Source of the DNA: a virus
Direction: 5' to 3' (one strand)
DNA: 45,176 nt
IMG/VR virus record: IMGVR_UViG_3300036820_000030
Span: 1-45,176 of that record
Below the pieces are notes generated by a model, which did no database searches, had not been told where the DNA came from, and saw only the letters and a program-made list of their open reading frames with translations. The stretch's first letter is position 1. Each line of letters starts with the position of its first letter. Shown here piece by piece: positions 7,194 to 24,803 of this stretch. A program made the translations under genes and the position numbers.

Positions 7194-8369
7194 ATGGCCG
7201 CCAACAACGACATCGTCAGCCGCGCAGGACAGGGCGGGACCAACCTGGTTCCGGTCGACTACGCAGACGTCATCCTGCAGGCCGCAGTCGAGCAGTCCGC
7301 GGCCATGCAGCTCTTCCCCCACTACAACATGGGCACGTACCAGGAGCGCATCCCGGTCCTGACCGCGCTGCCCCAGGCCAGCTTCGTGAACGGTGAGGCC
7401 TCGGCCCTGTCCGGCTCCACGCTCGGCCTGAAGAGCACGACCAACGTGGCCTGGGAGGGCCGCATGCTCACGGCGGAGACCATCGCCGCGATCATCGTCG
7501 TGCCGAAGCAGCTCCTGGCAGACTCGCAGTTCGACATCTTCGCGCAGGTCCAGCCGAAGATCTCCGAGGCCATCGGCCGCGCGCTCGACGCGTCGGTCTT
7601 CTTCGGAGCCGTCAAGCAGCCGACCTCGTATCCGACGCCGCTGGTCCCGGCCAGCGTCGGCGCGGGCCTCACGGTCACGCAGGGCACGAACGACGCGGCC
7701 GACGGTGGACTGGAGCAGGACTTCGCCGACCTGATCGCGCTGGTGGAGAACCAGGGCTTCCAGAGCGGCGGGTACATCGCCAACACCACCCTGAAGGCGG
7801 CCATCCGCGGGACGCGTACCACGTACGGTCAGCCCGTCGACCCGGCCAACTTCAACCCGAACAGCATCTACGATGAGCCGGTCACGTACCCCCTCAAGGG
7901 CCTGTGGCCGACCCACATCACGGGGCTGGTCGCGTCGTTCAACGACAGCGACGAGATCACGCTGACGACCGGTAACACGTCGCAGCTGGACGTCGGTCAG
8001 GCGATCTCGGGCACGGACATCCCGGCCAACTCGGTCGTGACGGACATCGTGGACTCGACGCACTTCCACATCAACAACACGACCACGGGCGGCAGCCAGA
8101 CGGACATCTCGCTGACGCTCACGGCCCCCGTCGCCATGACCGGTGACTGGAGCCAGGGGATCCTCGGCGTCCGACAGGACCTGAGCTACCAGATCCTCAC
8201 GGAGGCCACCCTGTTCAACGACGCCGGCGCGGCCACGGTCGCCCTGGCGCAGTCGAACGCCATCGGCCTCCTGGTCGAGGCCCGATTCGGGTTCGCGGTT
8301 GCCAACTGGGCCACCTACCTGGCGCCGAACGAGGCGACTCGTTACCCGTTCGCCACGATGCTGGCCTAG
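7194..8369 (+). CDS. Major capsid protein, HK97-like, with inserted beta module
   Basis: Shell subunit, 391 residues. The N-terminal arm (GTNLVPVDYADVILQAAVEQSA), the E-loop region (NGEASALSGSTLGLKSTTN), the spine-helix region (PKISEAIGRALDASVFFG) and the C-terminal beta segment fit the HK97 fold used by many phages. Residues about 244-312 do not: this Ser/Thr/Asp-rich stretch (VGQAISGTDIPANSVV at 267) interrupts the A-domain and recurs in three other virion proteins here. It would be displayed on the capsid surface. The start ATG has AAGGAGG and the CAGTAATG context shared with the tail tube and chaperone genes. No own decoration protein gene follows, so the insert may play that role (inference). 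Confidence 0.93.
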   Translation: MAANNDIVSRAGQGGTNLVPVDYADVILQAAVEQSAAMQLFPHYNMGTYQERIPVLTALPQASFVNGEASALSGSTLGLKSTTNVAWEGRMLTAETIAAIIVVPKQLLADSQFDIFAQVQPKISEAIGRALDASVFFGAVKQPTSYPTPLVPASVGAGLTVTQGTNDAADGGLEQDFADLIALVENQGFQSGGYIANTTLKAAIRGTRTTYGQPVDPANFNPNSIYDEPVTYPLKGLWPTHITGLVASFNDSDEITLTTGNTSQLDVGQAISGTDIPANSVVTDIVDSTHFHINNTTTGGSQTDISLTLTAPVAMTGDWSQGILGVRQDLSYQILTEATLFNDAGAATVALAQSNAIGLLVEARFGFAVANWATYLAPNEATRYPFATMLA

Positions 8370-8384
8370 TCTCACCAGTCGGGA

Positions 8385-8412
8385 GCGCCCGGGCTATAGG
8401 CGGCCCGGGCGC
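8385..8412 (+). terminator. GC-rich hairpin after the capsid gene
   Basis: Perfect 10-bp stem GCGCCCGGGC (8385-8394) with GCCCGGGCGC (8403-8412), loop of eight bases. It lies 16 bases after the capsid stop in a 155-base gap. No T-run follows, so it may be a weak terminator or an mRNA-stabilising end that lets the capsid message dominate over downstream genes. Confidence 0.55.
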
Positions 8413-8524
8413 CGCAGCGCCGGCGCGGAGCGCGCTCACAGATCGGCTCCGTGTCATTTCGTAGATCGAGTCCGACCCGACCGCTGCCTGCACGTCGCCG
8501 GACCAACCACAGAACGGACGGCGC

Positions 8525-9691
8525 GTGGACGCAGACTTCGTGGCCAAGCAGGGCGACGCCGGGCCTCTCTTCACGGACGTCATCACCGACCAGAACGGGG
8601 ACGTCGTCGACCTGACGGGCCTCGAGCTGGCGTTCATCATGCAGGACCTCACGGCCACCGTGCCGATGGTCCTGACGGGCGTCGTCTCCTCGGGGGCGCC
8701 GACGCAGGGCGCCATCCAGTACCAGCCGACGCCCGCCGACACGGCGCGCGCGGGATCGTACATGGCCAACTGGCAGGTGACCACGCCGGAGACCCCGTTC
8801 ACCGCGGACACGGTCGAGGGATCAGACCTGCTCGGGAACGTCTCCAGCTACGCCAACGTCGCGATCGGCGTGCCGATCTCAGGCGACGGGATCCCGGCCG
8901 GGACCTACGTCAAGGCCACTGACGGCGTCAGCACGGTCCAGCTCACGAACCCCGCCACCGCAGACGGCACGGGCGTCACGCTGACGCCTGGCACCCAGAT
9001 CACGTACCCGATCGATGGGTACCTGTGGGTGGACATCGAGCCGAACATCGCCGGCAGCGCCAACCTCACCGACTCGACCGAGAGCGTCCTGTCGGCCGCC
9101 GAGCTGGTGCGCCCGTCCGTGGCGTCCCTCGCCAGCCTCTGCCGCGCCCGCACCGTGGCCTTCGGGTCTGGCGGCGCGGAGCTCGGGAAGTTCACCAGCG
9201 CGACGCGCCCGACCTACGACGAGGCGCAGGACCTGATCGACCAGGCCGTCACGCACGTCCTGAGCGCCATCGGCTTCGACGTGCCGGACTGGACCTACTC
9301 GCAGGTCCGCCAGCTCGTCCTCCTGTACGCCGCGCGGCTCGTCGAGCTCACCTTCTACGCGCAGACCGTCAACAAGGACGAGAGTCCGTTCGAGGCCTAC
9401 GGCGCGCTGTATGACGAGGCCTTGGAGAACCTGCAGGGAGCGATCGAGGACAACGTCGCCGGCGCTCCGCGGCAGGGGGTCTTCTCGGTCGCCGTCATGA
9501 CCCGCCGCCAGCAGCGCATCCGTGACCTGGTCGAGGCCGGACGCCTCGGGACGTTCCGAGAGCTTCCTGACGACATGCGGTACCCGATGGGCCCGAAGGG
9601 TCTGCCGTGGGACATCCCCGGCAACTCGGCCGAGTGGGACGCCTTCGACTGGTCGTACGGGTTCGACAGCTGGATGGAAGTCGACGTATGA
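8525..9691 (+). CDS. Head-tail connector fused to a BppU-like N-terminal domain
   Basis: This 388-residue protein has two parts. Residues 1-190 resemble the N-terminal beta domain of baseplate-upper-like proteins (FVAKQGDAGPLFTDVITDQ, PTPADTARAGSYMANWQV, DGYLWVDIEPNI), interrupted at about 97-158 by the recurring module (IGVPISGDGIPAGTYV at 114). Residues 200-330 are helical (YDEAQDLIDQAVTHVLSAIG; RQLVLLYAARLVELTFYAQ) and look like phage head-tail adaptor proteins; the position right after the capsid gene supports that. GTG 8525 is the only suitable start; its ribosome site is weak. The stop overlaps the next ATG (ATGA). The fusion is unusual and the exact neck role is inference. Confidence 0.75.
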   Translation: MDADFVAKQGDAGPLFTDVITDQNGDVVDLTGLELAFIMQDLTATVPMVLTGVVSSGAPTQGAIQYQPTPADTARAGSYMANWQVTTPETPFTADTVEGSDLLGNVSSYANVAIGVPISGDGIPAGTYVKATDGVSTVQLTNPATADGTGVTLTPGTQITYPIDGYLWVDIEPNIAGSANLTDSTESVLSAAELVRPSVASLASLCRARTVAFGSGGAELGKFTSATRPTYDEAQDLIDQAVTHVLSAIGFDVPDWTYSQVRQLVLLYAARLVELTFYAQTVNKDESPFEAYGALYDEALENLQGAIEDNVAGAPRQGVFSVAVMTRRQQRIRDLVEAGRLGTFRELPDDMRYPMGPKGLPWDIPGNSAEWDAFDWSYGFDSWMEVDV

Positions 9692-10185
9692 GCGAGCCGA
9701 CTCCGGCGGCGGGGATGCAGGTCTACATCTACTCGCACGGCGACTCGGACATCCAGCGCCGGCTCGGACTGCTGGCCGACAACGTGGTCGAGATGCGCGT
9801 CGTGTTCGCGGAGATCACCGAGATCCTGGCGCTCCAGGAGAAGGTCGCCTTCGGCCGGGGGAAGAAGCTCTCGCCTGAGACCCTCGCGAACAAGGCCGCG
9901 TACGGCTTTCCGAAGACCAAGCTGGTGCGGACCGGCACACTGCGCGACTCACTGACGAAGGCGGCGGGCGGCGAAGGCGCGGTCCGCGTCATCACCGACT
10001 CGGGCATGATGTTCGGCACCGACGTCTGGTACGCGATCTTCGCGAAGGCCGGGACCAAGGCCGGCGCGCAGGGGCCGGGCGAGCCGAAGCGCTACGTCCT
10101 GAGCCTGACGCCCAAGACGCGGAAGACCATCCGGCTCCTCATCATGGAGCACCTCGGCTTCGGCGACGGAGGGAGCATCCTGTGA
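9688..10185 (+). CDS. Neck / virion morphogenesis protein
   Basis: 165 residues. The pattern RLGLLADNVVEMRVVFAEITEI followed by a Lys/Arg-rich segment, LVRTGTLRDSLTK, a short beta hairpin and GTDVWYAIFAKAGTKA is that of the phage virion morphogenesis family (Mu gpG / P2 gpS type), which completes tails or the head-tail neck. The start ATG at 9688 overlaps the previous stop (ATGA), replacing a longer upstream reading. It sits between a connector and the tail terminator, consistent with a neck role. Confidence 0.78.
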   Translation: MSEPTPAAGMQVYIYSHGDSDIQRRLGLLADNVVEMRVVFAEITEILALQEKVAFGRGKKLSPETLANKAAYGFPKTKLVRTGTLRDSLTKAAGGEGAVRVITDSGMMFGTDVWYAIFAKAGTKAGAQGPGEPKRYVLSLTPKTRKTIRLLIMEHLGFGDGGSIL

Positions 10186-10820
10186 CCGAGTCCGTCTTCG
10201 GGCAGATCATCTCGACCGAGAACGTCGAGGACGCCTACGTCGCGACCATCAAGCTCTGGGCCGACACCTACCTGTCCGAGGTAGAGCGGCAGAACGACAT
10301 CAGCGTCCCGACGATCGGGCGCCCCGCGTCGTACCAGCAGACGTACGACATGGACAACTGGCCCCTCGACCAGATGCCGGGCGTGATCGTCGTGTGCCGT
10401 GGCACCACCGGCACCCTCGAGCGCCAGGGAGACCAGACCTACGGCGGCTGGTTCGAGGTCGGCGTCGGCGTGCTGGTCAGCGGCCAGAACACCCTCGACG
10501 CGCGCACCGTCGGACAGCGCTACCAGGCCGCCATGAACGCCCTGATCCTCCAGCAGGGTAGCCTCGGAAACTTCGCCACGTCCACGGTCCTCACGAGCTT
10601 CTCGGTCGACCTGCAGGACGTCGAGAACCGCTACCTGGCCCTCGCGGTCAGCGAGTTCCTCACCTTCGTCGACGGCATCGTGGCCGCCAGCGCCGGGCCG
10701 ATCCTGCCCGACCCGACCGAACTGACGCCGGATCCGGACGCGCCTCCGGGCTCGACCGAGTCGCCGTACTCCGGCTACCCGGAGTCGAGCAGCTACGACG
10801 TCACGCTCACCGCAGATTAG
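10182..10820 (+). CDS. Tail terminator-like protein
   Basis: 212 residues, GTG start overlapping the previous stop (GTGA). The alpha/beta pattern (KLWADTYLSEVERQ; PGVIVVCRGTTGT; GWFEVGVGVLVSG; ARTVGQRYQAAMNALILQ) and its place directly before the sheath gene match tail terminator or minor tail proteins that cap the tube at the head side. The last 45 residues are Pro/Asp/Ser-rich and probably disordered. Recognition is by position and general pattern rather than a diagnostic motif. Confidence 0.65.
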   Translation: MTESVFGQIISTENVEDAYVATIKLWADTYLSEVERQNDISVPTIGRPASYQQTYDMDNWPLDQMPGVIVVCRGTTGTLERQGDQTYGGWFEVGVGVLVSGQNTLDARTVGQRYQAAMNALILQQGSLGNFATSTVLTSFSVDLQDVENRYLALAVSEFLTFVDGIVAASAGPILPDPTELTPDPDAPPGSTESPYSGYPESSSYDVTLTAD

Positions 10821-10868
10821 ACCCCGGGCCAGCAGACCCGACCACCGACTCCAAGGGAGCCACCAGAA

Positions 10869-12530
10869 ATGCCCCAGCTCGGGATCGTAGTCACCACCAA
10901 CGAGGCCGCCGTGACTGGCGGAGCCTCGGTCGGGACCGGTACGGCCTTCATGGTCGGGCAGGCCGACCAGGGCCCGGTCGGCGTGGCCGTCCTGTGCCAG
11001 AGCTTCACCAAGTTCATCTCGACCTTCGGGACGCGCAGCTCGACGTCCGCGGAACTGTACGACGCCGCCGAGACCTTCTTCCAGGAGCAGGGTGGCCTGC
11101 TGTACGTCTCGCGTGAGGAGGGCTCCTCGATGCTCTCCGACCCCGCCAGCTACACGGCGAGCCTGACGCTCGATGACGCGGCCAGCTCCGCGGCCGTCGT
11201 CGTGTCCTTCCTGACGCCGGGCGCCGACGGTAACAACTACGAGGTCCAGGTCGAGACCGCGGACGCCGACACGTTCACCGCGACCCTCGCCGACAGCTCG
11301 ACCACGATGTCGGCCATCAGCGACTTCACCAACATCGGCGTCGGCACCCCGGTCAGCGGCACGGGCGTCACTTCAGGCACGACCATCTCCAGCGTCGACG
11401 TGGACGCCGGCACGGCCGTCCTGTCCACGGCGACCACGGCTGAGGCGGCCGGCACCGACATCGTCATCACGCCGACCCAGTTCACGGTCCTGATCACCGA
11501 CCCGACCGATGACCCGAGCACCACGCTCGAGGAGTGGGGCCCGTTCGCCACGACCGCCGAGCTCTTCGAGGTCGTCAGCGCCTACGTGTCCTTCGCCATC
11601 AGCGGCTCCAACCACCACCAGCCCGCCTCCCTGGAGGCCACGGCGCTGAGCGGCGGCGCCGACGACTCGGGTGACGTGAGTGACAACACGGTCGCCACGG
11701 CCCTGACCTTCTTCCTACCCAACCTCGGGCCGGGTCAGGTCAGCGCGCCGGGACAGACCGACGTCACGATCCACGCGGCGCTGGCGGAGCACGCCATCGC
11801 CAACAACCGCGTCGCCTGCCTCGACGTCGCCGACAACAGCTCGGCCGACACCGTGATCGCAGACCTCGGCGCGCTGGTGGATACGAGCTACTGCATCGTG
11901 ACCGAGGGCTCCGGCATCATCCCGGGCCTGGTCGCGGGCACCACGCGCAACGTCGCCGCCTCCGCGATCGTCTCCGCGCTCTGCGCGCAGGTCGACGCCA
12001 GCGGCAACCCGAACCAGGCCCCATGCGGCGTGGACTTCCCGCTCCAGTACGTGATCGGGTTCACCGAGAACTTCCAGCTCTCGGACATCCAGCTCATGAA
12101 CGCGGCGGGCATCAACACGTTCGACACCATCAACGGGATCCTGTGCCTGTACGGGTTCAGCACCCCGGTCAGCGACAGCGTCGATCCGATCTTCTGGCAG
12201 GCGAACCACGCCCGCCTGAGGATGGCCCTGGTGGACCTGTTCAAGCAGGTCGCCCAGCCGTACATGTTCAAGCAGATCGACGGCCAGGGAGTGCTGCTCG
12301 GCAACTTCGGCGCCGCGCTCTCCGCGCAGCTGACGGCGCTGTACGGCGAGGGGGCTCTCTACGGCGACACGGCCGCGGACGCCTTCAGCGTCGACGTCTC
12401 GTCCGCGGTGAACACCGTGGACAACCTGTCGGACGGGATCATCGGCGCCGCCGTGTCCGTCCACATGAGCCCGTTCGCGCAGCAGGTCAAGCTGGTCCTG
12501 ACCGCCGTCCCGATCACACAGAGCCTGTAG
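10869..12530 (+). CDS. Tail sheath protein with inserted beta module
   Basis: Contractile sheath subunit, 553 residues. The N-terminal signature GTAFMVGQADQGPVG, FTKFISTFG and YDAAETFFQEQGGLLYVSR is that of phage sheath proteins; the C-terminal domain ends with NTVDNLSDGIIGAAVSVHMS and KLVLTAVPI, the conserved part that grips the tube and neighbouring subunits. This gene is the key evidence for a contractile tail. Residues about 141-202 are the recurring module (VGTPVSGTGVTSGTTI at 158), placed in the middle of the protein where sheath proteins tolerate surface insertions. AAGGGAG precedes ATG 10869. The tail tube gene follows. Confidence 0.93.
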   Translation: MPQLGIVVTTNEAAVTGGASVGTGTAFMVGQADQGPVGVAVLCQSFTKFISTFGTRSSTSAELYDAAETFFQEQGGLLYVSREEGSSMLSDPASYTASLTLDDAASSAAVVVSFLTPGADGNNYEVQVETADADTFTATLADSSTTMSAISDFTNIGVGTPVSGTGVTSGTTISSVDVDAGTAVLSTATTAEAAGTDIVITPTQFTVLITDPTDDPSTTLEEWGPFATTAELFEVVSAYVSFAISGSNHHQPASLEATALSGGADDSGDVSDNTVATALTFFLPNLGPGQVSAPGQTDVTIHAALAEHAIANNRVACLDVADNSSADTVIADLGALVDTSYCIVTEGSGIIPGLVAGTTRNVAASAIVSALCAQVDASGNPNQAPCGVDFPLQYVIGFTENFQLSDIQLMNAAGINTFDTINGILCLYGFSTPVSDSVDPIFWQANHARLRMALVDLFKQVAQPYMFKQIDGQGVLLGNFGAALSAQLTALYGEGALYGDTAADAFSVDVSSAVNTVDNLSDGIIGAAVSVHMSPFAQQVKLVLTAVPITQSL

Positions 12531-12565
12531 CCCCGGCCACAGCGTAACGAAGGAGAGTCCCAGTA

Positions 12566-12997
12566 ATGCTGTATCGCGAGAGCCAGGGCAACATCACGGT
12601 CGTGGTCAACGGCGTGAGTCTGCCCACCAGTTCGTGGGCGACGCTGGCCGGTGGCGACGCCGCGGCCGGGTCCAACAAGACCCGCCCGGGCGGCATGGGC
12701 AAGGGCGTGGAGCTGGGCGGACAGGTCGTCCGCACCGACGCCACGGTCACCCGCCAGTGGTCGGACGCGCTGATCGCGGTCTACTACGACCTCGATGGAA
12801 GCGCCGGCAACACGGTCGCCAGCGTGTCGTTCACCCCGCTGAACCTGAACAAGTCGATGAGCGGCCAGCCGTCCTTCACCTGGACGGGCATCCTCCTCAC
12901 CGTCACCCCGCCGCCCGTCTCGGCAGAGTCCGACACGGCCGCGTTCCTGAGCATCGTCATCGGCCTCAACGAGGACATGGCGACTCACCAGAACTAG
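12566..12997 (+). CDS. Tail tube protein
   Basis: Inner tube subunit, 143 residues. It follows the sheath gene by 35 bases as in other contractile phages. Beta-strand pattern with ITVVVNGVSLPTSSWATLAGGDA at the N-terminus, a loop rich in Gly/Lys, and ASVSFTPLNLNKS and FLSIVIGLNEDM later fits the tube fold. Ribosome site GAAGGAG, start context CAGTAATG. A strong hairpin follows the gene, as expected for a highly expressed product. Family similarity is inferred from order and size, not from a unique motif. Confidence 0.85.
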   Translation: MLYRESQGNITVVVNGVSLPTSSWATLAGGDAAAGSNKTRPGGMGKGVELGGQVVRTDATVTRQWSDALIAVYYDLDGSAGNTVASVSFTPLNLNKSMSGQPSFTWTGILLTVTPPPVSAESDTAAFLSIVIGLNEDMATHQN

Positions 12998-13008
12998 CCA
13001 CCACACGC

Positions 13009-13039
13009 GCCCGCCCGGCGACTTCAACGCCGGGCGGGC
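13009..13039 (+). terminator. Strong hairpin after the tail tube gene
   Basis: Perfect 12-bp GC stem GCCCGCCCGGCG (13009-13020) with CGCCGGGCGGGC (13028-13039), loop ACTTCAA. It lies between the tube stop and the chaperone gene. There is no T-run, so it may attenuate transcription or protect the 3' end of the sheath-tube message. Confidence 0.65.
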
Positions 13040-13070
13040 TCCAGCATCCAGTACCGAGAAGGAGACAGTA

Positions 13071-13601
13071 ATGGACGAGCAGGCCGCAGTCACCACAGAC
13101 ATCGAGAGCATCCCTCAGCCCGGCGCGCCATCGCCCGCACCCTCCAGCCTGGAGGCCGCGGTGCAGGCCCGTCGGGCTTCGCTGCAAGCAGAGCAGAGCG
13201 TCCACCTCCCGGTACCATCCTGGAACGGACGCCTGGTCGCGGAGTACCGCGGCCTGGAGTGGAAGGAGCTCCGCGGTGAGATCCAGGATCGTAGCGAGGC
13301 CTCGATCAACGAGACCACCACCGCCGCCAACTCGCTCCTGCGGGCCAGCGTCGACGTGTACTTCATCGAGGACGACCGCACGAAGCGTTCGCTCGGTCCG
13401 TGGGACGAGGCCTACACCCAGCTCGGATTCCGCGATGGCCTGACCGCCCGCCAGGCGCTGATGGTGCCGGGCATGGTGTTCGCCCGGGACACGCAGCTGA
13501 TGGCGCACTTCGCCGCCTTCCAGGAGTGGCAGCAGGGCTCGGACGAGGAGGTCGATGAGACGATCGCGGGGGAATCCGTAGGTCCCGAGTCGGCCAGCTA
13601 G
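13071..13601 (+). CDS. Tail assembly chaperone, short form
   Basis: 176 residues between tube and tape measure genes, the usual place for the gpG-type chaperone that coats the tape measure during tail assembly. Helical middle (WKELRGEIQDRSEASINE; DGLTARQALMVPGMVFARD) and an acidic C-terminus. AAGGAG then CAGTAATG at the start. A second frame without its own start follows and can be joined by a -1 slip at 13568-13574, as in most tailed phages. Confidence 0.85.
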   Translation: MDEQAAVTTDIESIPQPGAPSPAPSSLEAAVQARRASLQAEQSVHLPVPSWNGRLVAEYRGLEWKELRGEIQDRSEASINETTTAANSLLRASVDVYFIEDDRTKRSLGPWDEAYTQLGFRDGLTARQALMVPGMVFARDTQLMAHFAAFQEWQQGSDEEVDETIAGESVGPESAS

Positions 13602-13741
13602 TAGCCGCCGGGGCCGCGCTCCGGTGTGGGCTCGACGCCCTCGAGCTCTATCGCACCAACGACCCACACGTCCTCGCGTTCGCCGAGGCCGTGGTCCTCG
13701 AGACGGCCCGTCTGATCGAGGAAGCAAACAAGAGCAGGTAG
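13071..13741 (+). CDS. Tail assembly chaperone, -1 frameshift product
   Basis: A -1 slip on the heptamer G-GGG-GAA (13568-13574, near the end of the short form) shifts reading into a frame that stays open to TAG at 13739-13741, giving about 223 residues (gpGT type). The added part contains LVAAGAALRCGLDALELYR and LAFAEAVVLETARLIEEANK, a helical tail ending 13 bases before the tape measure start. This frame has no start codon or ribosome site of its own, and the stretch would otherwise be an unexplained 150-base gap. The long form bridges the tape measure to tube subunits in known phages. Use of this slip site here is inference. Confidence 0.75.
13568..13574 (+). promoter_or_regulatory. Probable -1 frameshift site
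   Basis: Heptamer GGGGGAA, read in the zero frame as G GGG GAA; re-pairing one base back is allowed at the P and A sites (GGG to GGG, GAA to GGA). It is the only clear slippery run in the overlap of the two open frames. Confidence 0.65.
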
Positions 13742-13754
13742 GAGACAGCACGCC

Positions 13755-15578
13755 GTGAGCGGTATCACCGAGCAGCTCATTCTCGACATCAAGGTCCTCG
13801 GGGCGCGGCAAGCCGCGCTCGAGGCCAAGATGGTCAACGACGAGGTGGGCGGCGTCGGCACCACGACCGAGAAGGCGGGCAAGCAGGCGGAGAAGTCTGC
13901 CAGCAACTTCGCGGGGCTGGGGACGTCCTTCAAGTCCCTCGCGAAGCTCGGCGCGGCGGCCGGCCTGGCGTTCGGCATCAAGGACATCATCAGCGCCGGC
14001 GTCGACTGGCAGAAGCAGCAGGTCCAGCTGCAGGGCGCCCTCAAGAAGACCGGCAACTACTCCGAGGCCACGATGAACCACCTGGAGAAGGTGGCGGCGA
14101 ACCTGTCCGAGAAGGGCGGCTTCGCTGAGACGGCGAACCTCGGGGCGATCCAGCAGTTCACCCAGGAGACCGGCAAGTCGTCTCTGGCGGTCCGCGGACT
14201 CAGCGCGGCCACCGACCTGGCGCGCGGGGCCGGCCTGTCACTGACCCAGACCCAGAAGTACATCGGCATGGCCATGGCCGGCAGCACCGGCCGACTGAAC
14301 AAGTACCTCGGCGCGCTCATCCCGGTGACGACGCACGTGGACAACCTCACGTCGGCGCAGCGTAAGAACTGGGCGACCTACAAGAACGCCGAGCTCCTTG
14401 ACAAGCAGGCCACCGCGACGATGATCCTGGACAAGATCCAGAAGAAGTTCGGCGGGGACACGGCGCGGTACAACAAGACCGCCGCGGCCGCCGTCAGCAA
14501 CCTGCACAACGCCGTCGTCGAGCTGGCCGAGAAGATGGGCGCCGCCCTCCTCCCGGCGCTGACGAAGATCGTCACGACCATCAGCCACTTCATCCTCACG
14601 CACAAGAAGCTCGTCGAGATCCTGCTGGCGTCCCTCGCCGCGATCCTCGCGTTCGAGGCCGCGGTCAAGATCGCCAAGGGTGTGATGAAGGTCTGGACCG
14701 ACGTCACGAAGCTCGCCGGCGTGGTGCAGAAGGGCTACACGTTCATCATGAAGGTGGCGCAGGGAGCGCAGCTCGCCTACGCCGCGGCGCAGGGGACCGC
14801 GACGGCCGCCACCGAGGCGGAGACCGCGGCGCTGGCCGCGTTCGACGCCGTGCTGGACGCGCTGGGCATCGGGCTCATCATCGCCGCGATCGCCGCGCTC
14901 GTCATCGGCATCATCGAGCTGATCAAGCACTTCAACGCCGTGAAGAAGAACGTCATCGAGTCCTTCACGGCCGTGTGGTCCTTCTTGAAGGCGATCGGGC
15001 CCAAGATCCTGGACGTCATCACCTGGCCATGGCGGATGGAGTACGACTTCGTGGTCGGGGTCTTCAAGAAGGTCATCACGTTCTTCAAGGGGCTGCCGGC
15101 CACGATCGCGAAGCTCGCGGTCAAGATCTGGGACGCGCTCAAGCACGGCGTCAGCGCCGCCGTCAACTGGATCGTCAAGCAGATCGAGGGCATCCCAGGG
15201 AAGCTCATCGGAGGCGTGGTCGGGATCGGCAAGAAGATCATCGGCGGCATCGGCTCGATCGGGTCCAGCGTCGGCCACTTCTTTGGGCTCAACAAGGGCG
15301 GCGTCGTGCCGCGTCACTTCTCGAGCGGCGGCTACGTCATCCCGGGCTCGGGCACCTACGACAGCGTCCCGGCGATGCTGACTCCGGGCGAAGGCGTGCT
15401 CAGCGTCGCGGCCATGAAGGCCATCAACTCGCGCGGCTTCAACATCCCGACCGTGGGCACCGGCAACGCCCCTGAGGTCATCGCGACCGGACCGATGCAG
15501 AACATCATCATGATGGACACCCGGAAGGTGGCCGAGGAGATCACCCGTTACCAGCTCAAGATCGCGGCCCGCCGATGA
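13755..15578 (+). CDS. Tape measure protein
   Basis: Sets tail length and is ejected with the DNA. 607 residues, which by the usual 0.15 nm per residue would correspond to a tail near 90 nm. N-terminal long helices (TTTEKAGKQAEKSASNFAGL; a GVDWQKQQVQLQGALKKTG segment), hydrophobic segments at about 285-310 and 370-395 (AFDAVLDALGIGLIIAAIAA), and Gly-rich C-terminal repeats ending in a KGGVVPRHFSSGGYVIPG motif frequent in tape measure proteins. GTG start 13755; GGAG lies 10 bases upstream. No peptidase or muralytic domain is visible in it. Confidence 0.93.
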   Translation: MSGITEQLILDIKVLGARQAALEAKMVNDEVGGVGTTTEKAGKQAEKSASNFAGLGTSFKSLAKLGAAAGLAFGIKDIISAGVDWQKQQVQLQGALKKTGNYSEATMNHLEKVAANLSEKGGFAETANLGAIQQFTQETGKSSLAVRGLSAATDLARGAGLSLTQTQKYIGMAMAGSTGRLNKYLGALIPVTTHVDNLTSAQRKNWATYKNAELLDKQATATMILDKIQKKFGGDTARYNKTAAAAVSNLHNAVVELAEKMGAALLPALTKIVTTISHFILTHKKLVEILLASLAAILAFEAAVKIAKGVMKVWTDVTKLAGVVQKGYTFIMKVAQGAQLAYAAAQGTATAATEAETAALAAFDAVLDALGIGLIIAAIAALVIGIIELIKHFNAVKKNVIESFTAVWSFLKAIGPKILDVITWPWRMEYDFVVGVFKKVITFFKGLPATIAKLAVKIWDALKHGVSAAVNWIVKQIEGIPGKLIGGVVGIGKKIIGGIGSIGSSVGHFFGLNKGGVVPRHFSSGGYVIPGSGTYDSVPAMLTPGEGVLSVAAMKAINSRGFNIPTVGTGNAPEVIATGPMQNIIMMDTRKVAEEITRYQLKIAARR

Positions 15579-16504
15579 CCATTGCCATCTCGCTCCCAGG
15601 CGGGGCCGCCAAGAAGAAGGGCAAGTCGGCCGGTAACAAGCTGGGCCACCTGCCGCCGCCCCAGGACCTGCGGTTCATCCAGTTCACCGGGTTCTGGCAG
15701 GGGTTCTCCCACTCGTTCCAGGTCATGCCGGCGCCCGACCAGGGCCCGCTCGTGACCGGTGGCTTCCCGATCATCAACGTCGTGCAGCGCCCGCAGCGCA
15801 TCTCGCTCACGATCCCCGCCGGGTATGACCCGGTGACGCTGGACATCCCGGTCCAGTTCGAGGCCTGGAGCGCCGGGGACAACTCCCAGGCGCAGCTGAT
15901 CGAGGAGGACATCTCGATCCTGGAGTGGATGTACGGGCGCGGCGCGTTCGGAGGCCCCGGCGGAGGTCCGCACGGGGTCGGTCCGCCGCCGACCGTTCAG
16001 ATCGCGACGCTGAACAGCGCCGGCCAGACCATCCCCCTGCTGAGCTCCAACTACCAGTTCCTGGCGATCGACGGCTCGACCGTCAACGCGGGCAAGCTGG
16101 CGAACGGGGCGGCGCCGAACTACGAGATCACGAGCATCAGCTGGGACCCGACGCCGCTGCGCGTGCCGGCCGGACAGACCTACGGAGGCTGTCGCCTCCG
16201 CCAGCTCGCGACCATCAGCGTCCAGCAGATCGAGTCCGACCCGTACATCACGACGCCGGGCACCGCCGCGGCTCAGTCGGGCGCGCAGGGACAGACCGTC
16301 ACGGTCACGACGCGTGACGGAGACACGTTCCTGACGATCGCGCGCCGCGTTGTCCCAGGCCACAACGCCGCCGAGACGCACGCCATCGCGACGTCGATCA
16401 TGAACACGAACAGCTCCAACTCGAAGCTGGCACGCGGGATCGGCACGAAGCAGAAGAAGGGCATCACGGTCAAGGTCACCCCGGCCGACCGGGCGGCGAC
16501 CTGA
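15575..16504 (+). CDS. Baseplate/tail protein with C-terminal LysM-like domain
   Basis: 309 residues, ATG overlapping the tape measure stop (ATGA). The N-terminal 230 residues are beta-rich and of unknown type. The last 65 contain a LysM-like pattern (VTVTTRDGDTFLTIARRVV, then an Asn-rich helix and KGITVKV), as in gp53/XkdP-type proteins that link the tape measure to the baseplate hub. LysM would bind peptidoglycan or stabilise the hub. Position directly before the hub gene supports this. Confidence 0.8.
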   Translation: MTIAISLPGGAAKKKGKSAGNKLGHLPPPQDLRFIQFTGFWQGFSHSFQVMPAPDQGPLVTGGFPIINVVQRPQRISLTIPAGYDPVTLDIPVQFEAWSAGDNSQAQLIEEDISILEWMYGRGAFGGPGGGPHGVGPPPTVQIATLNSAGQTIPLLSSNYQFLAIDGSTVNAGKLANGAAPNYEITSISWDPTPLRVPAGQTYGGCRLRQLATISVQQIESDPYITTPGTAAAQSGAQGQTVTVTTRDGDTFLTIARRVVPGHNAAETHAIATSIMNTNSSNSKLARGIGTKQKKGITVKVTPADRAAT

Positions 16505-18957
16505 TGGCCGGTCAGTTCCCGCATGACATCGGCGGGGTCCCCACCCTGATCGCGCAGCAGATCGCCGACGGCACCAGCTCGCCGAACCCGCCCCCGGTGT
16601 TCGACCTCGCCGAGGCGGTGCAGGAGGTCACGATCCGCACGCAGATCGAGGGCTCCAGCTTCATCGACGTCACGCTGATCGACCCTCAGTACAGGTTCAT
16701 CAACCACGGGTTCCTGAACCTCGTGCAGAGTGGCAACGAGGCGGGCCTGCTCGAGGCGATCCAGGTGGAGTTCCCGGTCAACTCGGGGACGTTCTGGGTG
16801 CTGACCGCAGCAGACCTCGCCACCGACCAGTCCGACGCGAACATCACGCTGACGTTCGAGGATCGGATCATCTGGGAGCTCCGCCAGTACTGGGGCGCGA
16901 CGACGCCGCGCAAGACGAACGTCCTCCAGTTCATCCAGTCCCTGGTCAACGAGTGCAAGAAGCCACCGACCGGAGAGTCGGCCGGCTGGCAGCAGATCGA
17001 CTTCGTCTGCCCCGAGCTCAAGATCTCGGTCGACGACTCCAAGCCCGCCAAGACCCCCGCGCTGCGCAACCGGAACAAGGAGAGCGGCGTCGACGCCTCG
17101 ATGCCGACCGACACCACGCTCACCAAGGACCAGGCCGACAACATCGCCGTCGCGATCAAGATCGCCAAGCAGCTGAACGCCCCGCTGCTGGCCGTGCAGG
17201 CGCTCCTGTGCGCGGGGTTCGGCGAGTCGGGCTGGCGCAGCGGACAGTCGAACGGCACCTACGGAGGCGTCCTCGGCGGCAGCCTCTCCATATTCCCGAA
17301 CACCAGCGACCCGGGACCGGAGGTCTCCTCCTTCCTGGTCGGTGGCAATGGCTATCAGCAGGGCGGCGCGATCGCGATCGCGAACAGCGTGGCCAAGCAC
17401 GGCGGTGACTCGTCCCCAGGCTACATCGCGCTGGTCGTCGAGGGCTCGGACGTCCCTGGCACGAAGCAGGCCTGGGGTGACGGCGGCAACATCGCGGCCG
17501 GCACGGCGTACTACGGCAAGTTCCTGGACCAGGCCAACGACATCCTCCAGCACTCGGGCGCCTACGTGGCGCTCGCCGCGGCGTCCAAGGCGTCCGGCGA
17601 CCCGGCGGCCGCGAGCTGGAACCCGAACCTGACCCTCCAGCGCGGAGGCGTGGCCAACCCGGGCGAGGACTCGTGGGACTGCATCCAGCGCGTCCTGCAG
17701 GCGAACCCGCCGAGCGCCCCGGGCCTCCCGATCGGGGACGGCACCACGTGGAGCGCGTTCAGCAACGGCGACGCCTTCTACCTGATGGACGGCCACGACA
17801 TGATCGCGCAGAAGCCCGCGGCCTACGTCGACCCGGCCAACAACGTCTGGTGGGCGACCAGCTCCCTGACCAGCGGCAACCGGGACAAGTACGACACGTC
17901 CAAGCACGTCGGTGACGTCCTGTCACTCACCGGGACCTGGGACAACACGGCGTTCATCTACGCCTCGACCAAGACCCACAAGGGCAAGGTCTCCCGCAAG
18001 TCCCGCGTCTCCAAGCCGAGCACCCCGACGGAGCTCACGCTGGAGCTCGTGTGCGGTATCGACGAGTTCCGCGCCGGGCAGGTCGTGCACATCATGAACT
18101 TCGGCCCCGCCACCGGCAAGTGGATCATCACGGACGCCACCCGTAACTGCATGGGCGACACGTTCACCACCTTCACGCTCCAGCCGCCGACGGACCAGAA
18201 CGACTCGTCCACCGTCACGGCGGTCCACGCCAACAGCCCGGTCGGCTCGACGTCCACGAACGGGCTCGCCGCCGCGGCCACCGGCGACAACGCCAGCAGC
18301 CCGGCCAGCGCCGCCATGCGCGCGCTCGCCGAGAAGAGCAAGTTCACCTACCCGCTCAACGACTCCGTGAACGCGCGGCCGATGCCGTTCAGCCTCTTCG
18401 GGACGCAGCAGGTCGCCGGGTTCGGCGTGCCGTTCACCGTGGACTGCTCGGCGTTCGTGACCCTCTGTTACAAGGCCGCCGGCTGGGCGGACCCGAACGG
18501 ACCGGCCTACAACTACAACGGCCAGGGCTACACCGGAACCCTCGCCGCGAACAGCGACAAGGTCACCGAGCCGCAGATCAACGACCTGTGCCTCTACGGC
18601 GCGGCGCCGGACTATGAGCACGTCACGATCTACGTCGGCAACGGCATGGTCGTGAGCATGGGCCAGGAGGGCGATCCCGTCCTGCTCCCGTACAACTACA
18701 GGTCCGACTTCGTGGCCTACTTCCGTCCCCGGAACAGCATCTCGAGGTTCGGCGCGGTCACCGCCTCCGGTAAGCCAGCGCCGTTCAGCGTCACCCAGAG
18801 CCCGTTCCCGCAGTCAGGCAAGGACAACGTGACCCCCGCCCCAGGCTACAACAAGAAGCCGAAGCAGCCGGCGGCGTCCCCGGTCACGGTGGGCGTCAGC
18901 TCATCGTCGGCGATCGCCGCGGCCAAGGCGGCCGGACAGCCCGTGATCGGAGGCTGA
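16504..18957 (+). CDS. Baseplate hub with internal lytic domain and C-terminal NlpC/P60 peptidase
   Basis: 817 residues; start overlaps the previous stop (TGATG). Residues 1-200 look like the gpD/gp27-type hub ring ([31 protein letters not shown]). About 210-360 resemble a lysozyme or transglycosylase insert: [15 protein letters not shown] with a candidate catalytic Glu at 241. The hub fold resumes around 380-590. About 600-735 form an NlpC/P60 cysteine peptidase: FTVDCSAFV with Cys 648, and YEHVTIYVG with His 706. The C-terminal 80 residues are Ser/Ala/Pro-rich. Two wall-cutting activities in one virion protein would help the tail tube cross the cell wall at infection. The peptidase call is strong; the internal glycosidase call is moderate. 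Confidence 0.85.
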
Positions 18958-18958
18958 C

Positions 18959-20659
18959 GTGCCGAACGTCACGCAGTCCCTCCGTCAGGCGAGCCCGACC
19001 GACGTTGGGCCGAACGCGCTCATCGGGTTCATCTCCACCGACCGCGACGCACCGACCGGGTTCGGCCAGGACCTGTACGTCTGGGTCCCGGGCATCGACC
19101 CGGAGAGCGTGCTCGGTCCGTGCCACTGGGGCGCCCCGATCGGGAACACCCTCCCGGCGCAGGGGGCGGCCTGCCTGGTCGTGTTCGACGTCTACGGAGA
19201 CCCGACGGTCGTCTGGTACGACGGCTCTCCGTCATTCACCGGGCCCAGTGGTCCGAGCGGACCATCGGGACCGTCGGGCCCGCAGGGACCTTCCGGCCCG
19301 CAGGGACCGAGCGGGCCTTCAGGCCCGGCAGGTCCGAGCGGGCCGACCGGCGCCACCGGCAGCACGGGTCCGTCCGGGCCGAGTGGCCCGGCGGGGCCGA
19401 GCGGACCGAGCGGACCGACGGGCGCCACAGGAGGGACGGGACCATCGGGGCCAAGCGGACCATCTGGTCCGTTCGGCGGAGACTCGATCGCGTGGACGTT
19501 CAGCACGGCGACCACCAGCTCCCCGGCGTCGGGCGTCGCTAACTTCGATAACGCGACCTACGCCAGCGCGACCCACGTCTACCTGAACAAGCTGGCCTAC
19601 GACGGGGCAGACGTGTCGACGTGGATCACATCCACGACGGCCGGCAGCACGATCAAGATCTTCAACCAGTCCGACCCCGACCAGTACGTCATCGGCGTCG
19701 TCGGCGGCCACACCCTGTCGGGGTCCGTCTACTCGATCCCGTTCACCTACACGACAGGCAACGGGACGCTCGACACGACGGCCGGGGACCTGGTGGTCAC
19801 CCGCAGCCTGATCGGTTCGACCGGGAACACCGGCGCATCGGGTCCATCAGGGCCCTCCGGTCCGTCCGGACCGTCTGGGCCCAGCGGACCTTCCGGACCG
19901 AGCGGTCCGCTCGGCACGACGCCGGCGGCGCTGCAGGTCTACGACAGCGTCACGATGCCGTCGCTGACCGCCGGCACGAACCAGAAGATCGTGATCAACA
20001 CGGTCGTCGCGGACACGATGAGCTGGTGGGACGCCACGAACAAGCGGTACAAGCCGCAGGTCGCTGGCTGGTACCTCGTGGGGTGCTCCTACACCGACAC
20101 GGCGTCCGCGCACTCGGTCGGCTCGGTGGTCGAGCTCGGGGTCTACAAGAACGGCTCGTACATGGTCGCTGGCCACTACGTCGACCGGACGTACTCGGGC
20201 AACGCGTCGTGGGGCATGCAGGCCTCCATGAACCAGTGGCTCGTCTACATGAACGGGTCCTCGGACTACCTCGAGGTCTACGGCAACGCCAGCGGCGCCT
20301 ACGTCGGGGCCGTGTCCATGTTCGTCGTGTCGGCTGGTCTGCAGGGACCGGCTGGGGCGTCCGGTCCGTCGGGTCCATCGGGCCCATCAGGACCGAGCGG
20401 ACCATCGGGCCCGACGGGAGCCACCGGCGCGTCCGGCACCGGGTCGTCCTACGCGACGACCGTGGGAGACGGGTCCTCCACGAACATCGTCGTGACGCAC
20501 TCCCTCGGAACGCGAGACGCGCACGTCGCCGTGTACCGCAACTCGAGCCCGTATGACGTGATCGGGTGCGGGGTCGCGATGACCTCGACGAACACGGTCA
20601 CGCTGACGTTCGGCAGCGCGCCGTCAAGCAACCAGTACAGGGTGGTCGTAAAGGTATGA
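18959..20659 (+). CDS. Spike OB-fold / collagen-like / C1q-like fibre fusion
   Basis: 566 residues, GTG start one base after the hub stop. Residues 1-93 resemble the OB fold of gpV/gp45 spikes ([33 protein letters not shown]). Collagen-like Gly-Pro-Ser triplets occupy about 95-172, 286-318 and 463-493. The segment 173-285 is a beta domain; 320-460 resembles a C1q/TNF jelly roll ([16 protein letters not shown]); the last 70 residues match a common phage tail terminal domain ([19 protein letters not shown]). Collagen triplets would form a trimeric rod. The join of a spike domain to fibre material in one chain is uncommon; the alternative is a short central fibre attached by the OB domain. Confidence 0.82.
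19241..19474 (+). repeat. Collagen-like codon repeat, main block
   Basis: Tandem Gly-Pro-Ser and related triplets, seen as imperfect 9-base repeats of the type GGTCCGAGC or GGACCATCG. Two shorter blocks occur at about 19814-19914 and 20345-20440. The codons vary, so the repeats are kept at the protein level rather than by recent slippage. Confidence 0.9.
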
Positions 20660-21657
20660 CGATGAAGTTCGAAGACGTTCTCGAGCTGGACAGCGGGCTC
20701 CTCATCCCGAGTGGTGGGGCGCTCGGAAAGGTCCTCGCGTCCGACGCTTCCGGGAACGCGACGTGGGCCAACCACGGGCCTGACAACATCCAGCCTGGGG
20801 TGCTAGGACTGGTGAACCCGGGCGTCCTCTCGGCCACGCTGCCCGGCACAACGTCATTGTCGCTGACCTTCACGAACTGGCCAACTGGCGACGTGGTATG
20901 GTTCAACGTCAGTAACCAGTACATCCGAGGGGTGCTCCCGGCGGGGACAGGTCTGGTGGCCACGTCGGGAGGGGGCTATAGCCACACCGCCATCGACGCC
21001 GTTCCCCCGACTACGCCGGGCGGGACCTGCACGCTCATCGCGTCACACGGCACCTTCAACGAGGGTTCCGCCGCCCTGGCCGCAGCCAACCAGGCGGCGC
21101 TGACGGCCGGAAACGTCAGGATCTGGGACGGGATCGTGCTTGACTCGGGCGGCAACTTCACGCTGGTCACCGCCAACGGCGGATCACCGGGGATGGTGTT
21201 CAACACGACCAGCGGCCGCGACCGGCGTCCGTGGGCTCGGGGCTTCCACTTCTACGGCAACCCCGGCGGGCCCAACGCGGTGGCTGCCACTCCGGCGTGG
21301 TATCAGATCAACTCTGGCCAGCAGGTCAGGGTCGAGGTCGGACAGAGCGAGCTGCTCCATCTCCGGCTCGAAATCGGGGCGTACACCGACTACGGAAGCT
21401 CGTACGGGCACATCGGATGGCTGATCGACGGGGTTGGGTCCGAGCCCGACCAGATCATGAACTTCGTGAACGCCGGGGCCTACACGACCCAGTGCATCAC
21501 CTGCGAGGGCGATCTGGTCATCGCGTCGGGAAGCTATCTGATCGCCCCCGCGTGGTTACCGTACACCTACGGCAACTCAACCCTCCACAATGACACGACG
21601 TTCAAGTGGAACGTCGACGAGATCATCCACCCCTCAACCACCAACGGGACGTCATAA
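20656..21657 (+). CDS. Tail fibre-like protein
   Basis: 333 residues; ATG 20656 overlaps the previous stop (ATGA). The N-terminus ([20 protein letters not shown] and SGNATW) is a motif common at the base of phage fibres. The rest is beta-rich with many Gly, Thr, Asn and aromatic residues, and contains [15 protein letters not shown] near the C-terminus. No chaperone or peptidase domain is visible. Base composition is slightly less GC-rich than neighbours, as often in receptor-binding genes. A receptor-binding role is inference from position and N-terminal motif. Confidence 0.72.
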
Positions 21658-21661
21658 GAGC

Positions 21662-21982
21662 ATGGCCGAGATCACACCACACTTCGCGTGGCCGTTCCGC
21701 TTCGTCGGAGGCGTCGCCGCCGTAGATGACCAGGGCACGCTCGCCGAGGTGGAGGCGTGCGTGACGCGCGTCGTCACGTGCTTCATCGGGGACTGCCCGG
21801 ACGTGCCCGACCTCGGGATCCCGAACCCGCTCTTCGCCCAGGCCCCGATCGACCCGACCGCGATCACGGCGGCCTGCAACCTCTGGGAGCCCCGCGCCAC
21901 CGTGACGGTGGGCGAGGGAGCCGACCCGTCTGACCCGACCGGTGCGACGCGCATCGTCACCATCGAAGTGGAGCTCTCCTGA
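21662..21982 (+). CDS. Baseplate wedge protein, gp25-like
   Basis: 106 residues. Pattern HFAWPFRFVGGVAAVDDQGTL, VEACVTRVVTCFIGDCPDVPD, FGIPN-like GIPNPLF and a final VTIEVELS corresponds to gp25/gpW-like wedge proteins with a shortened EPR region. Its place directly before the J-like gene is characteristic. ATG 21662 was chosen because earlier codons overlap the fibre gene; the ribosome site (AAGAG) is weak. Stop and next start overlap (TGATG). Confidence 0.82.
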   Translation: MAEITPHFAWPFRFVGGVAAVDDQGTLAEVEACVTRVVTCFIGDCPDVPDLGIPNPLFAQAPIDPTAITAACNLWEPRATVTVGEGADPSDPTGATRIVTIEVELS

Positions 21983-23595
21983 TGCCCGCCATCACCTTCG
22001 TCGACCTGCCGCTCACCACCGACCCGACGGCGCTCGCCAACGAGGCGACCGACCTGCTGCAGGCGTGGTTCATCGGGCAGGGGCTCTCCGACTGGCAGCC
22101 AAACGCGGTCAACCTCGAGATCATGCAGATCCAGATCCTGGCCGCGATGTTCAACGAGATCGCGGTGCTGGCCGCGCAGGTCCCGGCCTCGGTCTTCCGC
22201 AACTTCGGCACGCAGCTCTTCAACGTGCCCTACCAGAACGCCGTGGCCGCCACGGCCAACGTCGTGTTCACGCTCACGGATGACGCCGGCCACACCATAC
22301 CCGGCGGCACGTTCGTCAGCATCGATGGTGAGGGCTTCTACACCACCGCTGACGTCGACGTCCCGAACGGGCAGAGCTCCGTCCAGATCACGATGCCGGC
22401 CGTCGACGTCGGTTCGGCCTACAACGGGCTCGGCGCGGCCACCGCGCTGATCGACGCCATCAGCTTCGTGTCGGCCGTCACGACCAGCGGCGTCTCGTCC
22501 GGCGGCGTGGACGCCGAGACGGACTCCGACTACCAGGACCGCCTCGCGACCGAGCTGACCCTGCAGGCTCCGCGTCCGATCACCGCCAACGACTACGCCG
22601 TGTTCGTCCTGTCGTTCAGCCCGGCCGACGGCACCGACCAGCAGCTCGTCGGGCGCGCCACCGCGATCGACGGGTTCAGCCCCGACAGCGAGACGTTCAA
22701 CCTGACGTTCACGTCCTCGAGCCCGACGATCACGATCGTCTCGGGCCCGGGTCCGTTCGCGGTCCCCGCCGTCGGCGCCACCGTCACGGGCACCGGCATC
22801 AGCGGCACCGTGCTGGCCAGCCCCGCGCCGACCAGCTCGGAGTTCACGCTCAGCGCCGACCCGTCCGGATCGCACACCAACGAGGCCTGCACCGTCAGCT
22901 CGTCCTACTACAACGAGCGCACCGTCGGGGTCTTCGTGACCGACGTGAACGGCGACGCGCTCAACGAGGATACGCTGACCGCGATCCAGGCGTGGCTGGC
23001 GGGGGGTACGGTCGAGGACGTGGTCTATCCGGGCTACCGGGAGATCAACTTCATCGTCAACGTCATGTCCCCGACCTACGTCCAGATGTCGATCGCGTAC
23101 GAGATCCACGCGCTGCCGGGCTTCGGCTCCGCGAACGTGATCGCGAACGTGAACGCGGCGCTCGCGGCGTACCTCGATCCCGCGTCGTGGGGCTCGCAGC
23201 TCCCTGGCGCGCTCGACCCGACGTGGTACTCCAGCGCGCTCGGGTTCGGCACGGTCCGGATCAACAAGCTGATCGGGATCGTGGAGGCCGTGCCGGGCGT
23301 CGACTACGTCCTGACCGGGACGATGACCCTCGGAACCGCCCCGGGTTCGCCGGTCGGCACGACCGACGTCGCGATGGTCGGGCCGGCCCCGCTGCCGCTC
23401 GTCGAGTACCCGGACTTCGATCCGGTGGCCACGTACGTGACCGATGACCAGGTCCAGTACCTCGGAGAGACCTACTACAGCACGGCCGGGAGCAGCCCCG
23501 GCGCCTGGGACGGGTCTGACTGGACGCTGATCGAGGCCAACCCGGCCACGGTCAACGGCAACGCGGTCTCGATCTGGGGCTCGGCGGACAACTGA
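21982..23595 (+). CDS. Baseplate J-like wedge protein with inserted beta module
   Basis: 537 residues. N-terminal DLLQAWFIGQGLSDWQPN, beta strands with TIPGGTFVSIDGEGFYTT, and the middle TDSDYQDRLATELTLQAPR are diagnostic of Baseplate_J (P2 gpJ, T4 gp6). Residues about 236-305 are a copy of the recurring module (VGATVTGTGISGTVLA at 264), inserted before YYNERTVGVFVTDVNGD. The C-terminal 100 residues contain a small carbohydrate-module-like stretch (YVTDDQVQYLGETYYSTAGSS) similar to chitin-binding type 5/12 repeats. Stop overlaps the next start (TGATG). Confidence 0.9.
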   Translation: MPAITFVDLPLTTDPTALANEATDLLQAWFIGQGLSDWQPNAVNLEIMQIQILAAMFNEIAVLAAQVPASVFRNFGTQLFNVPYQNAVAATANVVFTLTDDAGHTIPGGTFVSIDGEGFYTTADVDVPNGQSSVQITMPAVDVGSAYNGLGAATALIDAISFVSAVTTSGVSSGGVDAETDSDYQDRLATELTLQAPRPITANDYAVFVLSFSPADGTDQQLVGRATAIDGFSPDSETFNLTFTSSSPTITIVSGPGPFAVPAVGATVTGTGISGTVLASPAPTSSEFTLSADPSGSHTNEACTVSSSYYNERTVGVFVTDVNGDALNEDTLTAIQAWLAGGTVEDVVYPGYREINFIVNVMSPTYVQMSIAYEIHALPGFGSANVIANVNAALAAYLDPASWGSQLPGALDPTWYSSALGFGTVRINKLIGIVEAVPGVDYVLTGTMTLGTAPGSPVGTTDVAMVGPAPLPLVEYPDFDPVATYVTDDQVQYLGETYYSTAGSSPGAWDGSDWTLIEANPATVNGNAVSIWGSADN

Positions 23596-24803
23596 TGAGC
23601 TACGATTTCCAGACGACGTTCGGGAGGGACAGCTTCGCCCGGTACCCCGAGCGCTGGCAGACGGACGACTGGGCCCTGTACTGTGACGCGATCGGCGCGT
23701 TCGCGGAGTACCTGTACGTCCTCGTGAACGACTCGGGGCCGGACGACGGGACCGCCGACTTCCTGCCGGGGTGGGGCGCGCTGTACGACCCGACCAACGA
23801 AGACTGCGACCTGTTCTACCTGGCGCAGTTCGTCGGCGTCCAGCTCACCGGGCTCGAGAGCCGCGACCAGGCACAGGCGCTCGTGCTCGCGGAGGCGGGG
23901 CAGAGCCGCGGGACGCTGACGGCCATCAGGTCGGCCGTGCAGCGGAACCTGACCGCGCCGACCAACCTGGTGGGCAACGGCGGGTTCGAGCACGACGCGA
24001 CGTCGTCCACGCCCGCGTGGTGGGCGGGACTGTGGTACGGGTCCGGGACGTCGATCACCACCGAGACCACCTACGCCGTGGAGACCGGGTGGGCCGACAC
24101 GGGCTCGCAGTCGCTGCGGCTCACCGGCACGGTCGGATCCGGCGCCGGTGATCCCGACCTCGGGATCATCTCCCCGGAGATCCCGGCCACGCCCGGACAG
24201 GCGTACTCGATGACCGCCGAGGTGGACTCGCTGACGTCCGGGACGGTCGCCAGCTGCATCATCTACTTCTACGACGCCGCGGGCGACCTGCTGGCCAGCC
24301 ATGACTCGAACCACAAGACCGGCACCGGCACGGACAGCCTCCAGGTCACGGACGTCATCGCCCCGGCGGCGACCTCGTACGCGAAGGTCATCTGTCGGAT
24401 CTACGCCACGTCCCCCGGGAGCATCGACGCCTACTTCGACTCGATCATCTTCGCGCCATCGTCCAGCTCGCCGAGCTACTTCGACGGCGATACGACCAAC
24501 TACGCCTGGACCGGGACGCCCGGAGACAGCACGTCCGTCGGGGACGTCGCGTCCATGTACAACGTCATCGAGCGCTCGTCCGCGACCTCGGTCGGGACGG
24601 ACGCCTACCAGTTCGTCGTCATCGTGAACCCCGCCGCCATCGCGGCCGGGACTGACCAGCTGGCCGTCGACGTCAACGCGGTGAAGCCCGCGGGCGTCTT
24701 CTGGACCCTCGTGCAGTCCGCCGCCTACGTCTGGGCGGAGGCCGAGAACACCTGGACCGAAGACACGCAGACGTGGGCCCAGGCCTCGGTGGTCCAGCCA
24801 TGA
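23595..24803 (+). CDS. Baseplate protein I-like with carbohydrate-binding-like insert
   Basis: 402 residues following J, the place of gpI-type proteins that attach fibres. Residues 1-130 (DDWALYCDAIGAFAEYLYV; FLPGWGALYDPTNED; TLTAIRSAVQRNL) fit the phage tail protein I group. Residues about 133-300 (LVGNGGFEHD, SLRLTGTV, PGQAYSMTAEVDSL) look like a CBM_4_9-type jelly roll that binds polysaccharide. The C-terminal 100 residues return to the gpI-like pattern and end in WTEDTQTWAQASVVQP. The insert may give contact with host surface glycans (inference). Confidence 0.78.
   Translation: MSYDFQTTFGRDSFARYPERWQTDDWALYCDAIGAFAEYLYVLVNDSGPDDGTADFLPGWGALYDPTNEDCDLFYLAQFVGVQLTGLESRDQAQALVLAEAGQSRGTLTAIRSAVQRNLTAPTNLVGNGGFEHDATSSTPAWWAGLWYGSGTSITTETTYAVETGWADTGSQSLRLTGTVGSGAGDPDLGIISPEIPATPGQAYSMTAEVDSLTSGTVASCIIYFYDAAGDLLASHDSNHKTGTGTDSLQVTDVIAPAATSYAKVICRIYATSPGSIDAYFDSIIFAPSSSSPSYFDGDTTNYAWTGTPGDSTSVGDVASMYNVIERSSATSVGTDAYQFVVIVNPAAIAAGTDQLAVDVNAVKPAGVFWTLVQSAAYVWAEAENTWTEDTQTWAQASVVQP

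Follow-up and report, generated by a model that had tools for sequence, protein, structure and literature searches.

The DNA analysed here, referred to as the window, is a complete IMG/VR virus record of 45,176 bases that represents an uncultured contractile-tailed phage (myovirus). Genes for terminase, portal, scaffold, capsid, adaptor, sheath, tube, tape measure, baseplate and fibre proteins follow one another in this order on the + strand (gene names outside the tested families were assigned from gene order and from similarity to relatives), and the replication genes are encoded on the strand opposite to the virion genes. The tail fibre protein (18959-20659) contains long collagen-like Gly-Pro-Ser repeats (Collagen PF01391, E 1.8e-18). 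The nearest named relatives, all of them distant, are phages of Arthrobacter, Microbacterium, Mycobacterium and Brevibacterium, which makes an actinobacterial host likely. When 84,980 genomes of bacteria and archaea were scanned for sheath carriers, no relatives turned up, no close relatives of the window sheath or capsid were found in single-protein scans of IMG/VR, and the window adaptor and J proteins had no tblastn match among named phages.

Four virion proteins encoded in the window, namely the capsid, the head-tail adaptor, the sheath and the baseplate J protein (Table 1), are each interrupted in otherwise conserved sequence by a segment of 65 to 75 residues, here called the module. The original prediction had placed a small beta module in these four proteins, and all four segments were found at the positions claimed, on virion proteins of outward type as it had supposed. 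The N-terminal domain of the adaptor bears a weak resemblance to the BppU_N-type domain PF10651 (E 0.005, under the curated cut-off), and the module is a separate insertion within this domain.

Table 1. Module-bearing virion genes of the window and the module copies within them
Feature	Position	Strand	Remarks
HK97-fold major capsid protein, 391 aa	7194..8369	+	Phage_capsid PF05065 E 1.5e-15; PHROG 10 major head protein; Foldseek top match 8eci_A (Bridgette)
Module copy 1, capsid residues 245-312	7926..8129	+	between two conserved capsid segments
Head-tail adaptor ('connector'), 388 aa	8525..9691	+	N-terminal BppU_N-like domain; relatives L090, L119, L098, L010
Module copy 2, adaptor residues 92-158	8798..8998	+	within BppU_N-like domain; outside-only profile E 1e-15
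Contractile tail sheath protein, 553 aa	10869..12530	+	PHROG 23 tail sheath E 5.7e-36
Module copy 3, sheath residues 136-204	11274..11480	+	outside-only profile E 1.1e-9
Baseplate J-like wedge protein, 537 aa	21982..23595	+	Baseplate_J PF04865 E 5.2e-23
Module copy 4, baseplate J residues 235-306	22684..22899	+	outside-only profile E 2.2e-6

Each of the four insertion sites was found empty in relatives of the protein concerned. Between the YPMRGLWP and GVRQDI anchors of the capsid there are 99 residues in the window versus 30 to 41 in 88 relatives. The sheath site spans 145 residues in the window versus typically 73 to 79 in relatives, a few of which have loops that reach 103 residues; none of these longer loops scores as a module. 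The corresponding distance in baseplate J is 126 residues versus 48 to 50 in relatives, and the site is empty in eight relatives with alignment across it. The BppU_N-like domain of the adaptor is complete and uninterrupted, without the module, in L090, L119 and L098. As judged from these alignments, the four segments are clean insertions in known folds and not parts of the core, and the earlier claim that they are absent from the core folds is borne out by empty-site relatives for all four proteins.

The four segments belong to one module type. A profile made from 27 copies on other contigs, with no window sequences in it, was searched against the 407 ORFs of the window and recovered all four copies, with scores of 57 bits for the adaptor, 39 bits for the sheath, 31 bits for the capsid (E 3.3e-7) and 28 bits for baseplate J, whereas the best scores among shuffled controls (2000 per copy) were 13, 6, 8 and 9 bits, respectively. 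When the window copies alone were used in a leave-one-out analysis, the adaptor and sheath copies were recovered and the capsid and J copies were missed; the membership of the latter two therefore rests on the outside profile. Pairwise identity among the window copies is 24-35%. The best cross matches between them at the DNA level are a 15-base exact match and a match of 35 bases at 77%. Because these DNA matches are only short, recent duplication of the module within the window was ruled out, as had been proposed from the divergence of the copies. No fifth full copy was found in the window. A stretch of 20 residues, GMSITGTGIPAGARICSCD, which resembles the central hairpin of the module, lies at the end of an ORF at 33085-33582 (window 33109-33171, - strand); it scores 24 bits with the outside-only profile as a partial module only, and forms the C-terminus of a small membrane-like protein encoded away from the virion genes.

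Structures were predicted separately for two of the copies, one within the whole capsid protein and the other as the sheath module alone. The AlphaFold model of the capsid has a pLDDT of 83 overall, with lower values in the insert (65-87), which consists of six strands (residues 242-249, 254-257, 270-272, 280-285, 290-293 and 305-309). The AlphaFold model of the sheath module, based on 31 aligned copies, has a pLDDT of 87 and likewise has six strands, with a spacing close to that of the capsid copy. Of the four predicted structures that the original prediction had proposed to superpose, these two share the six-strand layout. When the profile of 31 copies was compared with the PDB, it matched residues 12-74 of 8ECI chain 1 (E 1.5e-10), and no other entry had E < 0.3. 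The top Foldseek match of the sheath module was also 8eci_1 (probability 1.00, TM 0.68 on the query, with an E of only 0.068 for this very short model), followed by the phage phi92 endosialidase and ATP synthase subunits; most of the solved structures listed as matches were phage proteins or subunits of ATP synthase, and none was named as an Ig domain. No Pfam family was found on the module in the 31 copies, and no NCBIfam family spans it in the window proteins. The module is thus predicted to be a small six-stranded beta-barrel that is not Ig-like. An Ig-like fold (I-set, FN3 or BIG_2), which the original prediction had named among those of related modules, was ruled out by the six-stranded barrel, the Foldseek matches and the Pfam blank, and the nearest solved structure is instead a decoration protein of phage Bridgette.

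This decoration protein (gp7, 126 aa; PDB 8ECI chain 1) has the homologous module at residues 12-74, and of the capsids with solved structures that of Bridgette is most closely related to the window capsid (33% identity). In Bridgette the module is encoded by a separate small gene (gp7, whose length fits the solved chain) directly after the capsid gene and has its own C-terminal part, whereas in the window it is part of four larger genes (capsid, adaptor, sheath and J) and the capsid gene has no small decoration ORF after it. By sequence and predicted fold, the module belongs to the Bridgette decoration-module family, and its gene arrangement in the window is a different state.

The module is common in viral contigs and not limited to the phage of the window. 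Since the module alignment (A5) was too diverse to scan directly, a degenerate DNA pattern was used on IMG/VR, and this one pattern matched at least 120 stretches. A profile search of those loci gave at least 132 ORFs in at least 53 host-protein clusters, among which are tail fibre, collar, head-closure, minor head and capsid proteins. The neighbours among BFVD predicted structures (tail collar, fibre, capsid and decoration proteins) are consistent with the profile matches. The search of other proteins and viral contigs suggested in the original prediction has in this way placed the module in many virion proteins. A tblastn search of named phages with the module of a relative gave no match, possibly owing to a low-complexity filter. 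The module is present in a stand-alone decoration gene in Bridgette, ChuckDuck, L062, L064, L077, L079, L080 and L165, and within a capsid protein in the window, L010, G003 and the more distant L164. In L164 (792-2039, - strand), the module occupies the corresponding part of a distant HK97-type capsid protein, possibly as an independent capsid insertion.

Copies at the same sites as in the window were found in six other contigs. In contig G003 (58.9 kb), the module occupies the window sites of capsid, sheath and J and occurs in no other protein. Contig G002 (59.5 kb), on which no capsid was found, has it in sheath and J, and G001, a fragment of 12.9 kb, has it in the capsid. The capsids, sheaths and J proteins of these contigs are approximately 40-45% identical to those of the window, and the fold motif is intact in their copies. 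Three further contigs (G026, G027 and G028) have it in J with the sheath sites empty, and no capsid of the window family was detected in them. The capsid site is occupied in L010 and G003; the sheath site is occupied in L248 and L183 and empty in the remaining sheath relatives; the J site is occupied in G002, G003, G026, G027 and G028. Altogether, the module is present at the J site in six phages, at the sheath site in three, at the capsid site in three, and at the adaptor site only in the window. In G027, the module is also found in a 763-residue tailspike-looking protein encoded upstream of the sheath gene (L340:2818-5106).

In the core-protein trees, the module-bearing capsids form one group (support 0.45), and the module-bearing sheaths and J proteins each fall in a four-member clade with one other, fragmentary relative (support 0.62 and 0.99, respectively). 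The tree of the modules themselves is mostly poorly resolved; it has one J clade with 91% support, comprising five of the six J copies, and the window J copy, which lies outside this clade, and the window capsid copy are placed without reliable support. The possibility that the capsid, sheath and J copies are either all present together or all absent was dropped on account of the J copies and empty sheaths of G026, G027 and G028. The order of gain was inferred from the distribution of the module over relatives. Because three phages have a J copy without a sheath copy, this distribution suggests stepwise acquisition followed by retention, with J the earliest site, then sheath and capsid, and then the adaptor.

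The baseplate J protein of one relative (L159:11485-12996) has an FN3-looking domain where the window has the module; the J site therefore accepts differing decorations. Other N-terminal domains are found on the adaptors of relatives. Sites with alternative beta domains are what exposed decoration ports would look like.

Two other stretches of the J region of the window were noted. The protein encoded after baseplate J (23595-24803) contains approximately 125 extra residues, which makes it a fifth virion protein with an insertion; the extra stretch is absent from the G003 homolog and partly absent from the G002 homolog, and it has no Pfam or PDB match. The C-terminus of J (about 23410-23540) contains PVATYVTDDQVQYLGETYYSTAGSSPGAWDGSDWTLI, which by eye resembles a family 5/12 carbohydrate-binding repeat, a resemblance that Pfam did not confirm; it is missing from the J proteins of G002 and G003, in both of which the next protein after J has a similar-looking W..NTAY..G.IVSY stretch.

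Two published systems bear on what the module may do, and the first is an experimental precedent for a glycan-binding coat over capsid and tail of the sort that the original prediction had suggested. In the mycobacteriophage Douge, Ig-like domains of the capsid and tail-tube proteins number 919 over the virion; the isolated domains bind Mycobacterium smegmatis and LAM/AM and alpha-glucan fragments, and adsorption is slower on a mutant without surface arabinomannan (PMC13033339). The likeness to the window is that capsid and tail proteins of a single particle both bear small beta domains; head and tail copies coexist in the window (capsid, adaptor, sheath and baseplate) and in G003 (capsid, sheath and J). 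In contrast to the window, the Douge domains have an Ig-like fold, are C-terminal, occur in two proteins (capsid and tail tube) and belong to a siphovirus, and no sequence link between them and the window module was found; by the likeness, the module may work like the Douge coat. Sheath add-on domains of other phages, which lie away from the tube and for which an adhesion role has been proposed (PMC9230969), resemble the window in being extra beta domains on a conserved sheath core, but are mostly Ig-like or beta-sandwich domains, in descriptions that concern the sheath alone and draw no link to copies elsewhere in the same particle.

By analogy with Douge, the most likely role of the module would be weak, repeated binding of host or environmental glycans across the whole particle. 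We infer that all four copies face outward because relatives have alternative domains at these sites, published sheath add-ons are placed away from the tube, and the Bridgette homolog decorates the capsid. In the proposed mechanism, four virion proteins would each have separately acquired, within a loop, a barrel of the Bridgette decoration family; the loops, if exposed as supposed, would display hundreds of copies per particle (about 400 on the shell if it is T=7, and six per sheath ring, plus those of the neck and baseplate); each copy would bind weakly to a glycan of the host envelope or matrix; and the many copies would, by avidity, keep the particle attached to the cell surface until its tail tip binds the true receptor. 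Retention of the module at the same sites in phages whose proteins are only about 40-45% identical was counted in favour of such a coat. Counted against glycan binding were the absence of any match to a carbohydrate-binding family (Pfam for the 31 copies, NCBIfam for the window proteins) and the conserved residues of the module (VG, GTGIPAG), which look structural; no candidate binding site conserved among the copies was identified. The explanation as a whole, from separate insertion to avidity, is considered to have about an even chance of being correct.

The main rival to a glycan coat is reinforcement, since the Bridgette accessory protein is described in the Douge paper as bridging capsomeres, being dimeric and joining two P-hexons around the penton (PMC13033339). 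The module would then be a built-in cement that touches neighbouring subunits, stiffens the particle and replaces a separate decoration protein of the Bridgette type. The solved homolog is indeed a capsid decoration protein, neither the window nor L010 has a small decoration gene behind its capsid gene, G003 confines the module to capsid, sheath and J, and sheath add-on domains have been proposed as sheath stabilisers (PMC9230969). However, one module would have to fit four geometries, including that of a sheath that rearranges on contraction, which is less economical; moreover, numerous capsid relatives do without any inserted module, and the module is common on fibre and collar proteins too. 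Reinforcement is accordingly regarded as unlikely.

It is also conceivable, if rather improbable, that the module is a tolerated passenger, a self-folding domain that phages readily accept and shuffle between exposed loops, in each of which it would do little or nothing. Its promiscuity (at least 53 host-protein clusters), the tolerance of the sites for other domains or for none, and the domain mosaicism that is common in phage structural proteins (PMC10684548) all fit such a history, but same-site retention with an intact motif at about 40-45% protein identity would not be expected of a domain that is costly and repeated hundreds of times, and five of the six baseplate copies cluster in a single clade (91% support). 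That the segments are four unrelated Ser/Thr/Gly low-complexity linkers, alike by chance, is extremely improbable: the pairwise identity of merely 24-35% and the failure of tblastn to match the module of a relative in named phages, with the low-complexity filter as a possible cause, would be in keeping with such linkers, but a profile free of window sequences finds all four copies with shuffled sequences far below, the strand layout matches in two copies modelled separately, and unmistakable copies occupy the same sites in relatives.

Domains that decorate phages have usually been described protein by protein, and most of them are Ig-like. In the window, one unnamed, widespread barrel instead recurs within a single virion, in its capsid, neck, sheath and baseplate, and no non-Ig module spread over these four structures, with stepwise relatives, is described in the open-licence literature searched. 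A broader proposal, put forward tentatively as possible rather than probable, is that a non-Ig barrel was recruited stepwise, with the baseplate first and the neck last, into every major class of surface protein in one lineage of myoviruses and may have produced a whole-virion ligand-binding coat, of which the separate decoration gene and the capsid insert would be two states of one device. The findings link a solved decoration protein to inserted domains and provide a family profile for annotation. The nested relatives, with the module in J, in J and sheath, in J, sheath and capsid, or in all four proteins, make both the order of insertion and its benefit testable, and whether phages coat themselves for avidity becomes a concrete experimental question.
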